Below, piece by piece: positions 66 to 8,621 of a DNA stretch of 8,758 bases. The translations under genes and the position numbers were made by a program. The notes under the pieces were generated by a model. That model saw only the letters and a program-made list of their open reading frames with translations, made no database searches and was not told where the DNA came from. The first letter of the stretch is position 1, and every line of letters starts with the position of its first letter. The stretch comes from an uncultured bacterium (GTDB lineage Bacteria; CAIJMQ01), in the NCBI GenBank assembly GCA_903821905.1, contig CAIJMQ010000081.1, positions 1-8,758 on the forward strand, given 5' to 3'.

Positions 66-461
66 ATGGCAATAAGCAAACAATTGACAGTTTATCTGGA
101 AAATAAACCTGGGCAACTTGCAAAATTATGCAAAGCAATAGCCACTGATAAAATTAATATACTTGCAATTTCAGTGGTAGATACTGCTGACACAGGTGCA
201 GTCCGTCTTGTAGTTGATAATGTTGTAAAAGCTAGTAAATCATTGAAGAAACTCAACTTACTTGTTCACATTAGGGAGGTACTTATAGCAACTTGCCATA
301 ATAAATTGGGCGTGTTGGAAAAAATAGCCAGTAAATTAGCGAAAGCCGGAATCAATATCGATTATGCTTACGGTAGCACCAATAAGAATTCGAAAGAAGC
401 TATGTGTGTATTCTCTGTTTCCGACCCTAAGAAAGCAGACAAAATACTTAATGGGAGATAA
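66..461 (+). CDS. Tandem ACT-domain protein
   Basis: A 131-residue cytoplasmic protein made of two ACT modules and nothing else. The first spans about residues 5-65 and opens with QLTVYLENKPGQLAKL; the second spans about 71-131 and includes CHNKLGVLEKIASKLAKAGI. Each has the beta-alpha-beta-beta-alpha-beta pattern and the conserved turn (KPGQL, NKLGVL) after strand 1, where ACT domains usually bind an amino acid. There is no catalytic domain, so the likely role is ligand sensing, perhaps acting on a partner enzyme. The start is fixed by a full Shine-Dalgarno site 5 bases upstream. The gene stops 4 bases before the GMP-synthase-like gene, whose ribosome binding site lies inside this gene's 3' end, so the two are probably translationally linked. 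Fold assignment is confident; the ligand and the partner are inferred. Confidence 0.88.
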   Translation: MAISKQLTVYLENKPGQLAKLCKAIATDKINILAISVVDTADTGAVRLVVDNVVKASKSLKKLNLLVHIREVLIATCHNKLGVLEKIASKLAKAGINIDYAYGSTNKNSKEAMCVFSVSDPKKADKILNGR

Positions 462-465
462 TTAA

Positions 466-1431
466 ATGCAAATCCAAGAAATAAAACCTGAAAATTTGAA
501 CCCTGAAAAATTTATAAATCAAAAAGTTCAGGAAATTTCTTCAACTGTAGGCAATGGTTCGGCTGTCAATGCATTGTCCGGCGGAGTAGATTCTTCAACA
601 GTTACTATGCTTGCCCATAAAGCTTTGGGCAACAGACTAAAAACTTATTTTGTAGACAACGGCATAATGAGAGAAGGCGAGCCTGGAAAAATTATATCAT
701 TGTTCAGAAAATTAGGAGTAAAAGTAGAACTCATTGACGCTAAAAAAGAATTTTTTAAATCATTTAAGGGGATAATCGACCCGGAAGAAAAAAGAGAAGC
801 TTTAACTCAAACATTCTACAAAAACGTATTTGCTAAATTAGTAAGAGAAAGTTCTACAAAATACCTTTTACAGGGAACAATCTTAACTGATGTGGATGAA
901 ACGATTGCAGGCATAAAGAGACAACATAACGTTTTTGAACAGTTAGGCATAGATCCCCAAAAAGCATTTGGTTACAAAATCATAGAACCTTTAATACAAC
1001 TAAGAAAACCTGCAGTAAGAACAATAGCGAAAGCACTAGGACTTCCAGAAGAAATATATGCAAGACATCCATTCCCAGGGCCTGCTTTAGCAGTAAGAGT
1101 TATTGGAGAAGTCACACCCGAAAGAATAGAAAAGGTTAGAAAAGCCACAAAGATTGTCGAAGAGGAACTTTCCGGAGTAAAAGCATTTCAGTATTTGGCA
1201 ATACTGCACGAAGACAAAGTTACCGGTATGAGAGATGGGAAAAGAGATTATGGTTTCCAGATTGAACTGCGATGTTGGGACAGTACAGATGCAAGAATAG
1301 CATCACCCACTAAACTGCCTTATGAAACCTTGATAAAATTAGCAGATAGGATAACTAAAGAAGTGCCAGGAGTAGTAAGCGTAACTTATAACATAACCCA
1401 AAAACCGCCTTCAACAATAGAAGCTGTTTGA
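466..1431 (+). CDS. guaA: GMP synthase-type ATP-pyrophosphatase subunit, no glutaminase domain
   Basis: A 321-residue N-type ATP pyrophosphatase related to the synthetase half of GMP synthase, which amidates XMP to GMP through an adenylyl intermediate. The PP-loop ALSGGVDSS is at residues 36-44. FVDNG (62-66), the DPEEKR segment (105-110), QGTI (136-139), RHPFPGP (200-206) and a C-terminal dimerisation domain ending KPPSTIEAV follow in GuaA order. Typical bacterial GuaA is about 525 residues with an N-terminal class I amidotransferase; that half is absent here, as in archaeal subunit B. Some usually conserved positions differ: EALTQ replaces the KIIGR segment, the SHHNVGGLP stretch reads RQHNVFEQLG, and the C-terminus ends in AV rather than WE or FE. 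It may be a GMP synthase using ammonia or a separate glutaminase, or a paralogue with another substrate. GGGAG at 453-457 supports the ATG. Confidence 0.8.
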   Translation: MQIQEIKPENLNPEKFINQKVQEISSTVGNGSAVNALSGGVDSSTVTMLAHKALGNRLKTYFVDNGIMREGEPGKIISLFRKLGVKVELIDAKKEFFKSFKGIIDPEEKREALTQTFYKNVFAKLVRESSTKYLLQGTILTDVDETIAGIKRQHNVFEQLGIDPQKAFGYKIIEPLIQLRKPAVRTIAKALGLPEEIYARHPFPGPALAVRVIGEVTPERIEKVRKATKIVEEELSGVKAFQYLAILHEDKVTGMRDGKRDYGFQIELRCWDSTDARIASPTKLPYETLIKLADRITKEVPGVVSVTYNITQKPPSTIEAV

Positions 1432-4317: not shown

Positions 4318-5277
4318 GTGAGCAAAGAAAAGAATTTAACTTTTTCCCCTGTTATAGAAGAAGAAAATCGGAGACTTGATAAATTTCTATCGTCAAAACT
4401 CGGATTTTCGCGTTCCAAAGTTCAGAAACTAATTAACAATGGAAACGTAAAAATCAATCAAAAGATAGTAGAAATCCCGCATCATAAAGTAAAAATAAAT
4501 GAACCAATAGAAGTACAATTATCTACAATTTCACCTTCTAACCTTGAAGCAGAAAACATTCCTTTAGAAGTAATATATGAAGATGAATACCTAATTGTAA
4601 TAAATAAACAGCCTGGACTTATCGTTCATCCCACTGGTGATAAAAAGACCGGCACATTGGTAAACGCTTTACTTAATCATTGCGGTGAAGAAATATTAAA
4701 GATAGGCGGGAATGAAAGAGGAGGACTAGTCCACAGATTAGACAAAGATACGTCCGGTGTTATGGTAATAGCAAAAACAGAAAAGATGCATATTGAAATT
4801 GCACGTCAGTTCAAACAAAGAGAAATAGAAAAGACATATATTGCACTTGCATGGGGAATTATAAAAGAAAATGGAGGAGAGATTAACACGCCGATTGGAA
4901 GGTCAGTGGGAGACAGGAGAAAAATGAGTATTTTTTCGGCAAAGGCTAGGGAATCCACGACTTTATTTAAAGCACAAGAAAGATTTCAAGATTTCACATT
5001 ACTTGAACTGAAACCTAAAACAGGTAGGACTCACCAGATAAGAGTCCATCTTGCATCAATAGGACATCCCATAATTGGTGATGCTGTGTATGGGGGAATA
5101 AAAAGAATTTCTTCATCGAGCTTAAGCAATATAAAAGATAAAATCAAAAGACAGTTTCTCCATGCTCATAAAATAAAGTTTTATCACTCAGAATTGAAGA
5201 AATCCGTTGAATTTTCCGCGCTTCTGCCGGAAGATATGAAATTTGTATTAGCTTGGGCTAAAGAAAATGCGAAATAA
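4318..5277 (+). CDS. rluD: RluD-family 23S rRNA pseudouridine synthase
   Basis: A 319-residue RluA/RluD-family enzyme that isomerises uridine to pseudouridine in RNA, most likely in the large-subunit rRNA (E. coli RluD is 326 residues). An S4 RNA-binding domain covers about 19-70 (RRLDKFLSSKLGFSRSKVQ). The catalytic domain spans about 83-290, with INKQPGLIVHP (95-105), the signature HRLDKDTSG (139-147) bearing catalytic Asp142, and KTGRTHQIRVHL (234-245). The start is GTG at 4318, the first possible in this frame because an in-frame stop (the ilvD TAA) is just upstream. No Shine-Dalgarno sits at normal distance (AGGAG at 4293-4297 is 20 bases away), so initiation probably relies on coupling to ilvD termination 3 bases earlier. 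Family assignment is firm; the exact uridine target (RluC, RluD or another) is inferred. Confidence 0.93.
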   Translation: MSKEKNLTFSPVIEEENRRLDKFLSSKLGFSRSKVQKLINNGNVKINQKIVEIPHHKVKINEPIEVQLSTISPSNLEAENIPLEVIYEDEYLIVINKQPGLIVHPTGDKKTGTLVNALLNHCGEEILKIGGNERGGLVHRLDKDTSGVMVIAKTEKMHIEIARQFKQREIEKTYIALAWGIIKENGGEINTPIGRSVGDRRKMSIFSAKARESTTLFKAQERFQDFTLLELKPKTGRTHQIRVHLASIGHPIIGDAVYGGIKRISSSSLSNIKDKIKRQFLHAHKIKFYHSELKKSVEFSALLPEDMKFVLAWAKENAK

Positions 5278-5758
5278 ACCGATTGTCCTCGTTTTAGCCC
5301 ACTGTCTTATCAATACCAAAGTAAGAGCTAAAGGGCTTACTCAGCATCCTGAAATAAAAGATAAAATACTAAAACTTGCTAAAAAATATAATGCAAGAAT
5401 CCAGCAATTGCCCTGCCCTGAATTTTTATTTCTCGGGGAGAGAGAACCAAAAACTTATGATGGGTATATAGAAGTCGTAGGATTTAAAGGTTCTTGTGAA
5501 AAATTAGCGAAAGATACAATAAATAATCTTAAAAATTTGAGAGATGGTACTGTTATAGTCATCGGCATAGCAAGATCACCAAGCTGTGCTATTTCTTATG
5601 TCTATGATAGGAATAATAATTTGAAAAAAGGGGAAGGAATATTCATATCATTTTTGAGAAAGAATCTTGAAGCAACGTTTATCGAAATAGACTATCGTGA
5701 GATTGAAGATTCAATTGGTAGAATTGATAAAATTCTGGGAACCACTTCTTCTTTATAG
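5267..5758 (+). CDS. TudS/DUF523-related putative desulfidase
   Basis: A 163-residue cytoplasmic protein resembling the DUF523/TudS superfamily. TudS uses a [4Fe-4S] cluster held by three cysteines to remove sulfur from 2-thiouracil. The matching pattern is AHCLIN near the N-terminus (Cys13), PCPE in the middle (Cys50) and RSPSC (Cys107), in the family order CLxx, CPE, SPSC; GEGIF (122-126) fits the GxGxF that follows. Cys77 is an extra cysteine. It is closer to the shorter TudS-related branch than to classic DUF523, because the RYDG motif after the first Cys is altered. The start codon overlaps the rluD 3' end by 11 bases, indicating coupled translation. Substrate is unknown: thiolated pyrimidines or another thioamide are possible. 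Family call moderate, function inferred. Confidence 0.68.
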   Translation: MRNKPIVLVLAHCLINTKVRAKGLTQHPEIKDKILKLAKKYNARIQQLPCPEFLFLGEREPKTYDGYIEVVGFKGSCEKLAKDTINNLKNLRDGTVIVIGIARSPSCAISYVYDRNNNLKKGEGIFISFLRKNLEATFIEIDYREIEDSIGRIDKILGTTSSL

Positions 5759-6451: not shown

Positions 6452-7117
6452 TTATTTCTGCCCGTATCTATCCGAATGATACCTGCTATACCATTTTTCC
6501 ACTTCATGCGGTGAAAGAGATTTTATCTCCTTCCCAAGAATACCACCCGAAACTAATGAATAGAAAGAAACTTCCGCACAATATTCAGCCATAAGAGCGT
6601 AAAATGCTGCTTTTGGCGGATTTTCGCCAACAGTAAAAAGACCGTGATTGCCAAGAATTATCGCGGGACATTTATTCTTCTTGTAGCTTTTAAGGAGAGT
6701 TTTTCCAATATTGTATCCCGTGTTATCGACATAATCAGTAACGGGAATTTCTTTCCCAAAAACGTCTGCATGGGCAGTAGTTATAACAGGAATGGGAATT
6801 CCCAATACTGAAAAAACCGTAACAAATTTTGAATGAGTATGGCATACTCCGCCGATTTTATTTATGTTTTTATAAAGGAAAAGATGATGAATCGCATCGA
6901 CTGAGGGCTTTAAATCGCCTTTTTTCATATTTCCTGCCATATCAACAATAGCCATCATGCCTTCCTTAAGATTCTCATAAGGAACTCCGCTCGGCTTAAT
7001 TACAACCGATTTATTTTTCCTGTCTATTCCGCTTACATTCCCCTGAGTCCCATAAACAAGGTTGTTTTTCCACAGATAAATATTTGCTTTGTATACGCTT
7101 TCTCTAAGATTTACCAT
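6452..7117 (-). CDS. araD: L-ribulose-5-phosphate 4-epimerase (class II aldolase family)
   Basis: AraD interconverts L-ribulose 5-phosphate and D-xylulose 5-phosphate, feeding arabinose carbon into the pentose phosphate pathway. At 221 residues it is near the usual length (E. coli 231). Visible features are TQGNVSGID (24-32), IKPSGVPY (40-47, phosphate binding), PSVDAIHH (71-78, Asp74), the metal ligands in CHTHS (His93, His95) and NHG (His158), AHADVF (115-120, Asp118) and the tail RYGQ (Tyr218). Asp in HAD and Tyr in YGQ are epimerase features that favour AraD over fuculose-phosphate aldolase FucA. It follows araB with a 14-base overlap, the expected pairing. AGGTG (7122-7126) is a suitable ribosome binding site. 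It looks intact. Some ambiguity within the AraD/FucA/UlaF family remains, but the kinase neighbour supports AraD. Confidence 0.9.
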   Translation of the reverse strand: MVNLRESVYKANIYLWKNNLVYGTQGNVSGIDRKNKSVVIKPSGVPYENLKEGMMAIVDMAGNMKKGDLKPSVDAIHHLFLYKNINKIGGVCHTHSKFVTVFSVLGIPIPVITTAHADVFGKEIPVTDYVDNTGYNIGKTLLKSYKKNKCPAIILGNHGLFTVGENPPKAAFYALMAEYCAEVSFYSLVSGGILGKEIKSLSPHEVEKWYSRYHSDRYGQK

Positions 7118-8621
7118 TTCTCACCTGTTCTTTTATTTTCAACAACTCTTTCATTATATGGAATAGATTTTTATTATAAATCTCTGTCCCAAAGCTGTCA
7201 TGAAGCTCCTTGTAAATGGCATAGAGTTTATTGTATATCTTTTGACTTGCTGGGTTTGGATTATACACAATTTTCTTAAGTCCGCATATTGCCTTCTGTG
7301 CATCTTCGGTCTTCCTGTATGCACCCCCAGCAACTGAAGCAAAAATCGCTGCACCCAAAGCACATGTTTGGGTACTCCTTGAAGTTTTAATAGGGCGATT
7401 AAAGATATCGGCATAGATTTGCATAAGTAAAGGATTCTTCTCGGCAATTCCGCCGCAATTAATAACCTCTCTCACTTTAACGCCATATTCTTCAAACCGA
7501 TTAATTATTACTTTTGCACCAAATCCTGTTGCTTCAATCAGAGAACGATAAACCTCTTCCGGTTTTGTATGCAGGGTCTGACCTATAATCATTCCGGTTA
7601 AACGAGCATCAACAAGAATTGTGCGATTACCGTTGTTCCAATCCAGAGCAAGAAGCCCGCTTTCTCCGGGTTTCAATTTTTTTGCTTTTTCTGTAAGTAA
7701 AGCATGAATATCAATACCCCTTAATTTTGCTTCTTTATGATAAGCCGGCGGAACGAAATTATTTATAAACCAATTGAATATATCTCCAACTGCTGACTGA
7801 CCTGCTTCCAGTCCCAAATATCCCGGCAAAATTGAACCATCAACTATCCCGCACAAACCCGGGATATCAGCAATTTTTTCTTTATTAGGCACTGCCATAA
7901 TATCGCAGGTAGATGTGCCTATAATTTTAACAAGTACCCCTAGTTTTATTCCTGCTCCAACTCCACCCATGTGAGCATCAAATGCACCAACTGCAACTGA
8001 TATGCCTTGCGGCAAACTGAGTTTTTTAGCCCAAACAAAAGAAAGTCCTCCCGCTGAAACATCGGAAGTATATGTTTTCTTATATAATCTATTCCTTAAA
8101 TCGGTGAACTTTGGCGAAAGTTTGCTTAAGAACTCCAACGAAGGAAGCCCACCCCATTTCTCGTTGTACATTGCTTTATGTCCTGCAGCACAAACACCGC
8201 GCTTAATTTTCAAAGGGTCGGTTATACCAGTCAAAACTGCAGGGATATAATCTGATAACTCAACCCACGAATAAGCGGCATCAAAAACTTTTGGGTCGAT
8301 ATGCAGACAATGTAAAATCTTTGAGAAAAACCATTCGGATGAATAGATGCCGCCGCACTTGGCAAGATATTCAGGATGTTCTTTTCGGGCAAGTTGAGTT
8401 ATTTCTTCTGCCTCTTTATAACTTGTATGGTCCTTCCACAACCAAGCAAGTGCGTTTTTGTTATTTTTGAATTCCTTATGAAAAGCAAGTGGTAAAGCCC
8501 ACCTATCAATCGGTAAAGGTGTACTGCCTGTTGTAGCAATACCTATACCGATAACATTATTCGGTCTGAAATTTTTATTTTTACGAGCGCTGGATAAAAC
8601 TTCTTTTATAGAGCTTTCCAT
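7104..8621 (-). CDS. araB: L-ribulokinase AraB, N-terminally truncated
   Basis: A 505-residue FGGY-family kinase (L-ribulose + ATP to L-ribulose 5-phosphate). AraB signatures are TTGSTPLPID (30-39), WKDHT (62-66), CGGIYSSEWFFSKILH (89-104), GAFDAHMGGVGAG (212-224, catalytic base Asp215), IIGTSTCDI (233-241), GLEAGQSAVGD (270-280), LDWNNGNRT (326-334) and CALGAAIF (420-427). E. coli AraB has 566 residues; the first 60-70 residues, with the GLDFG(S/T) phosphate motif, are missing. Residue 1 aligns inside the family, and ten codons upstream of the ATG (8622-8651) still encode family-like RQYPRDWLNG before an in-frame TAA (8652-8654). No Shine-Dalgarno precedes this ATG. The product is therefore probably inactive, or the 5' end is misassembled. 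It overlaps araD by 14 bases. Confidence 0.82.
   Translation of the reverse strand: MESSIKEVLSSARKNKNFRPNNVIGIGIATTGSTPLPIDRWALPLAFHKEFKNNKNALAWLWKDHTSYKEAEEITQLARKEHPEYLAKCGGIYSSEWFFSKILHCLHIDPKVFDAAYSWVELSDYIPAVLTGITDPLKIKRGVCAAGHKAMYNEKWGGLPSLEFLSKLSPKFTDLRNRLYKKTYTSDVSAGGLSFVWAKKLSLPQGISVAVGAFDAHMGGVGAGIKLGVLVKIIGTSTCDIMAVPNKEKIADIPGLCGIVDGSILPGYLGLEAGQSAVGDIFNWFINNFVPPAYHKEAKLRGIDIHALLTEKAKKLKPGESGLLALDWNNGNRTILVDARLTGMIIGQTLHTKPEEVYRSLIEATGFGAKVIINRFEEYGVKVREVINCGGIAEKNPLLMQIYADIFNRPIKTSRSTQTCALGAAIFASVAGGAYRKTEDAQKAICGLKKIVYNPNPASQKIYNKLYAIYKELHDSFGTEIYNKNLFHIMKELLKIKEQVRNGKS
7122..7126 (-). promoter_or_regulatory. Shine-Dalgarno site of araD
   Basis: AGGTG within the 3' end of araB, 4 bases before the araD ATG. 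It supports translation of araD from inside the araB coding region. Confidence 0.6.

Follow-up and report, generated by a model that had tools for sequence, protein, structure and literature searches.

A stand-alone GMP-synthase-like ATP pyrophosphatase clade of bacteria and archaea, encoded in one bacterial family next to a double-ACT protein

Two adjacent genes

What could be the role of a GMP-synthase-type enzyme that lacks the amidotransferase half, and does the double-ACT protein encoded immediately upstream belong to the same system? The question is raised by the stretch of DNA analyzed here (8,758 nucleotides; hereinafter, the window), which is contig C81 of a 1.30-Mb MAG that is 84% complete; the nearest named record, JAHJCU010000004, carries the label Candidatus Omnitrophota. 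The first-pass annotation proposed that the two genes encode a regulated amide-forming or adenylating pair acting on a substrate other than XMP, with the ACT protein serving as ligand sensor or subunit.

The gene arrangement that it described is borne out. On the forward strand, the open reading frame for a free-standing double-ACT protein of 131 aa (66-461), preceded by the Shine-Dalgarno sequence AGGAGG (55-60), is followed by that for a stand-alone GMP-synthase-like ATP pyrophosphatase (ATPPase) with a dimerization domain (466-1431; 321 aa). Stop and start are separated by 4 nt (462-465, TTAA), and the likely ribosome binding site of the enzyme gene, GGGAGA (453-458), lies inside the 3' end of the ACT coding sequence, 8 nt before the ATG. 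This site is not kept in relatives, where the two genes are about 60-130 nt apart, so that its embedding is a local detail of the window. Downstream of the enzyme gene follow genes for a DUF1573 protein, ilvD, an RluA-type pseudouridine synthase and a TudS-related protein; the opposite strand carries GNAT, aldolase-type and ribulokinase-like genes. The TudS-related protein (5267-5758) is a putative desulfidase that matches NF045597 below the cut-off (3.5e-26) and is syntenic in the related genome G001. The ribulokinase-like FGGY kinase (7104-8621, reverse strand) is about 65 N-terminal residues short of the NCBIfam models and adjoins the L-ribulose-5-phosphate 4-epimerase/aldolase-family gene (6452-7117, reverse strand).

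The family assignment of the enzyme is straightforward. Pfam detects an NAD_synthase/PP-loop domain (2.8e-11) and GMP_synt_C (2.1e-20) and no fused GATase domain, in agreement with the annotation, and the nearest solved structures are those of archaeal GMP synthase subunit B (2dpl, 4.6e-78; 6jp9, 4.7e-72). An AlphaFold2 model built on 8 sequences (mean pLDDT 81, below 50 in the lid and the C-terminus) likewise has archaeal GMP synthase subunits as its top structural matches, with a TM of about 0.8; LarE appears among the more distant matches, with 15-18% identity. Against the TIGR00884 (guaA_Cterm) cut-off of 338.75, the enzyme scores 307.7 bits and four other members of the clade delineated below score 295-310, all under the cut-off.

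A distinct clade that coexists with GuaA

Could this protein simply be the GMP synthase of its host? The same genome contains a separate two-domain guaA, located on contig C108 (GATase 9596-10138, ATPPase 10166-11017), where it runs off the contig end; the 3' end of guaA is found at the edge of contig C33, followed by hisH, hisF, purF and pyrG. The C108 product passes the NCBI GuaA cut-offs (752 bits versus 400; 439 versus 338.75), and the gene order across the two contigs matches that in the relative G145, namely guaA, a 217-aa HisH-type GATase and pyrG. The would-be overlapping guaA ends on C108 and C33 (L193, L194) differ slightly, which may reflect either strain variation within the MAG or two copies. 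Both contigs also carry carA/carB-type genes. Because of this separate two-domain guaA, the conclusion that the window enzyme is not the ordinary GMP synthase of the cell is supported. Nor was a stand-alone GuaA-type glutaminase subunit that could complement it detected among the five GATase-domain places in this 84% complete MAG, which are of the GuaA, PyrG, HisH and, in two cases, CarA types as assigned from open-frame length, neighbours and sequence.

Such coexistence is the rule among the carriers. In 42 of 50 carrier genomes, GMP_synt_C is found in a second gene of GuaA type, whose open frame is mostly about 490-550 aa long; among these genomes is G064, a 5-Mb single contig for which both genes were seen in another search. 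In G160, one of the eight carriers without it, the start of guaA is seen at a contig end. The chromosome-level MAG G192, in which the clade member is the only GMP_synt_C gene, was considered as a case of natural replacement of the GMP synthase and rejected: neither CTP synthase nor a CarA-type GATase is present in it, and the genome is probably incomplete. As a separate observation, nine Omnitrophota-type carriers (G145, G146, G154, G156, G157, G160, G167, G183 and G192) encode a shorter, lower-scoring IMP-dehydrogenase-like protein of about 390 aa; in several Omnitrophota-type carriers, this gene lies beside guaA.

The window enzyme belongs to a well-delimited group. Proteins 65-83% identical to it are encoded in some of the 98 related genomes, as against about 34-45% for GuaA-type matches. 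Scanning one genome per species yielded at least 443 related loci; the best 80 of these, with 69-83% identity, come from bacteria (Omnitrophota, Desulfobacterota, Nitrospirota, Planctomycetota, Chloroflexota and Bacteroidota), archaea (ANME-1, Methanosarcinales, Bathyarchaeota and Asgard archaea) and several candidate phyla. The window's phylum is represented by 7 genomes, and the phylum survey around G064 by one. At least 86 relatives are full-length proteins of the same size with their own N-terminus, and the 30 compared show at least 62% mutual identity. On plasmids, only ordinary GuaA-like matches were found (about 39% at best), and the open-access literature searched yielded no description of the clade.

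In a maximum-likelihood tree of 65 sequences, the 38 clade members are monophyletic (support 100/100) and separated by a long stem. Within the clade, bacterial and archaeal sequences are mixed, which points to spread by horizontal transfer. The median identity is 71% between clade members, a figure biased upward because the loci were selected for their likeness to the query, compared to 61% between the GuaA ATPPases and 39% between the two paralogues of one genome (30 genomes with both). Between bacteria and archaea, with the same upward bias, the clade proteins are about 70% identical, above the GuaA of the same genomes in the sampled set. The sisters of the clade are two intermediate stand-alone GMP-synthase-like proteins, from G071 (L012) and G044 (L013), with 48-49% identity. 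The protein search of G071 (94% complete) matched no GMP-synthase-like gene besides this one.

Active site and possible reactions

Comparison of 86 clade members with 52 GuaA sequences, using the residue roles reported for GMP synthetases (PMC10526850, PMC11448925), reveals a combination of retention and clade-specific change. The ATP pyrophosphate-binding PP-loop SGGVDSS (residues 38-44; 577-597) is intact, and SGGVDS is invariant in the alignment. The XMP contacts Arg102, Lys302, Glu308 and Arg249 of the M. jannaschii enzyme have their kept counterparts in Arg110 (793-795), Lys313, Glu319 and Arg260, of which the first corresponds to the residue that contacts O6 of xanthine (PMC10526850) and the other three hold the phosphate; Gln242 at the ribose is kept in nearly all members. 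In the lid region, D142..E145..IKRQHN..QLGI (889-951), the catalytic Asp and Glu (D142, E145) as well as K151, H154 and N155 are preserved. The GuaA lid motif IK(T/S)HHN (PMC10526850) is, however, replaced by IKRQHN, with the GuaA-invariant first His changed to Gln153 in all 86 sequences, and HN is followed by a 4-residue insertion that the clade shares with the intermediate group.

Further changes are scattered over the substrate and interface sites. Ser305 and Asn309 (1378-1392) take the place of the GuaA-invariant Arg and Asp (M. jannaschii 294/298; Thermus 487/491), two residues that in Thermus GuaA are joined by a salt bridge at the dimer interface (PMC10526850, PMC11448925). In the C-terminal loop KPPSTIEAV (1402-1428), Lys313 and Glu319 are kept, whereas the GuaA-invariant terminal Trp-Glu is Ala-Val, and across the clade the C-termini read Ala/Val-Val/Ile. 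In all or nearly all members, the Gly beside the base-binding Pro-Gly-Pro is Ala207 and a GuaA Val is Trp271; Cys270 is near-invariant (98%); and the Glu of the glutaminase-docking motif KD(D/E)V(K/R) is Gly or Ala. Altogether, about 40 changes relative to GuaA are fixed in the clade. Some of them affect positions of known importance: the Plasmodium mutant in Arg539, the equivalent of M. jannaschii Arg294, is inactive, and mutation of the lid His equivalent harms the same enzyme (PMC10526850).

Given the retained residues, we infer that a 6-oxopurine nucleotide is first adenylated with ATP and then attacked by free ammonia. Under the reading that we prefer, and to which we would give an even chance, the clade members are glutaminase-independent, GMP-synthase-like PP-loop ATP pyrophosphatases that would act as ammonia-using adenylating amidases with XMP, or a 6-oxopurine nucleotide close to it, as substrate. 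The enzyme would bind XMP or a similar 6-oxopurine nucleoside 5'-phosphate; ATP would adenylate the base oxygen of the bound nucleotide with release of PPi; and free ammonia, or possibly another small nucleophile, would then displace AMP, with no coupled hydrolysis of glutamine. In the cell, the enzyme would work beside the housekeeping GuaA and not in its place. Whether the substrate is XMP itself is a matter on which the alignment speaks both ways: the retained phosphate and O6 contacts argue in favor, whereas the loss of Arg294, the lid His and the terminal Glu argues against, so that, with GuaA-invariant active-site residues changed, the substrate may not be XMP.

The strongest competing explanation, which we rate only somewhat short of even, holds that the PP-loop adenylation chemistry was kept and that what changed is the substrate or the nucleophile, with a sulfur donor or some other purine nucleotide as examples. 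LarE, a structurally related enzyme, uses a sulfur donor. A substrate or nucleophile other than that of GuaA is plausible inasmuch as residues of the substrate and interface sites are altered in a clade-specific manner: positions in the lid, at the C-terminus, flanking the base and at the dimer interface are remodelled and invariant across bacteria and archaea. The coexistence with GuaA in most carriers, the near-invariant Cys270 and the presence of LarE among the distant fold matches point the same way. On the other side, the residues that contact the phosphate, O6 and ribose of XMP are kept, and the likeness to LarE is at the superfamily level only. An extension of this idea, which we advance more tentatively still, is that a widespread, horizontally shared bacterial and archaeal family, largely from anoxic habitats, might adenylate some purine-type nucleotide that is not XMP, or employ a nucleophile that is not ammonia, to make an undescribed nucleotide or cofactor precursor.

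A narrower version of the preferred explanation, under which these proteins would be ammonia-dependent isozymes that convert XMP to GMP as GuaA does and are used when ammonia is plentiful, seems to us rather unlikely, if far from unreasonable. Ammonia-dependent NAD synthetases exist beside glutamine-dependent ones. Nearly all XMP-contacting residues are kept in the clade, and GMP synthetases form GMP with NH4Cl replacing glutamine (PMC10526850). Some of the loci adjoin genes of purine, histidine or carbamoyl-phosphate metabolism, namely purH (L077), purF (L047), carB (L062) and hisF (L042, L067, L076, L109), names that were read from the sequences and partly confirmed by Pfam. There is also G192, with its GuaB-like gene, purC and the clade's GMP_synt_C gene alone; as that genome also lacks CTP synthase and is probably incomplete, the absence of guaA from it proves little. 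What weighs against the isozyme is the set of about 40 clade-fixed changes, some at residues whose mutation kills or cripples PfGMPS, for which a redundant isozyme would have no evident need.

Could the genomic context decide between these possibilities? Neighbour clustering in the 80 loci retrieved, as candidates for a conserved operon partner, only generic families such as response regulators and ABC transporters, each in 10-11 loci, along with small groups of 4 that include hisF directly beside the enzyme gene. No Pfam family occurs in more than two of 62 adjacent co-directional neighbours, and no riboswitch was found upstream of the enzyme gene in 20 sources. Thus, neither a recurrent operon partner nor a riboswitch was found that would support a purine role. 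The loci with hisF directly 3' of the enzyme gene are from Methanosarcinales-type archaea, apart from one of Omnitrophota.

If the clade members are glutamine-free GMP synthases, they would provide their carriers with a second entry for purine nitrogen assimilation; if the substrate differs, an undescribed nucleotide modification would exist in ANME-1 archaea, Desulfobacterota, Omnitrophota and others.

The ACT neighbour and relationships to known systems

The third alternative is the one from which the annotation started, that is, a single regulated system in which the ACT protein senses an amino acid and controls the enzyme. Within the window's family, each of the four genomes, from two genera, has the ACT gene just 5' of the enzyme gene, at distances from 4 nt in the window to about 130 nt; in the window's genome, it is the sole ACT_8 gene detected. 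This pairing is compatible with a joint system, but G001 shows synteny across the entire region (ilvD, rluD, TudS-like, GNAT), so that proximity is to be expected, and the spacing varies. Among the best 80 loci, the only one with an adjacent ACT gene is from the same family (a few loci start too close to a contig edge to judge), and in the carriers G007, G012 and G064, outside this family, no ACT homologue was detected. Relatives of the ACT protein elsewhere often adjoin phenylacetate-CoA-ligase-like and 2-oxoacid-oxidoreductase-like genes (L187-L189, L191, L192; names read from the sequences), or unrelated genes. Furthermore, the first ACT domain best matches the AHAS small-subunit type (ACT_AHAS_ss, 7.8e-17) and ilvD, a gene of branched-chain amino acid biosynthesis, is close by, so a tie to branched-chain amino acids appears as likely as one to the enzyme. 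In our estimate, then, the joint system is improbable.

Thus, the ACT pairing is a lineage feature of the window's family. The ACT gene is a neighbour that is probably co-transcribed with the enzyme gene; its product may fine-tune expression or activity in this lineage but does not belong to the conserved machinery of the enzyme. The proposal of a general sensor or subunit is not supported, given that the pairing is limited to a family in which gene order is conserved too; the other part of the original idea, an amide-forming or adenylating enzyme with a substrate other than XMP, gains from the separate guaA and the altered residues. Of the three findings that the annotation named as damaging, namely absence of another GMP synthase, a GATase subunit encoded elsewhere and lack of conservation of the pair in relatives, only the last was made, and only outside the family. 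The object of interest is the enzyme clade rather than the pair. The weakest explanation, a decayed or truncated guaA copy, would fit the missing glutaminase half and the score under the curated GuaA cut-off, but is highly improbable in view of the at least 86 full-length, mutually similar relatives with their own N-terminus and intact catalytic motifs, and a truncated pseudogene is ruled out by the conservation of the clade.

How do these proteins relate to known systems? The ACT neighbour belongs among the ACT_8 double-ACT proteins (ACT_8 pair, 4.5e-13, 49.6 bits versus the cut-off of 23.5), being a relative of the BT0572-type pair (PDB 2f06, 9.4e-18). For the enzyme, the likeness to the LarE sulfur transferase and NH3-dependent NAD synthetase consists in a distant fold and PP-loop chemistry, at the superfamily level only. 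With bacterial two-domain GuaA (TIGR00884 / NF000848), it shares the ATPPase architecture and the catalytic Asp/Glu/Lys/His/Asn set, but it lacks the GATase, and the tested clade members fall below the equivalog cut-off. The closest counterparts are the ATPPase subunits of archaeal two-subunit GMP synthetases (PH1347, PDB 2dpl; M. jannaschii, PDB 6jp9), with about 38-44% identity. These pair with a separate GATase subunit, whereas for the window enzyme no partner glutaminase was detected; they end in Trp-Glu, in contrast to the Ala/Val-Val/Ile of the clade, which also differs in the Gln for His and the insertion in the lid and in the Ser-Asn at the place of the interface Arg-Asp pair. Common to both are the stand-alone ATPPase with a dimerization domain, the PP-loop, most XMP-contact residues and the C-terminal KPPxTIE. 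Although the window enzyme resembles the ATPPase subunit of a GMP synthetase and probably functions in the same manner, it lacks several defining features of GuaA, and we therefore file the clade as a variant and not as a member of GuaA.
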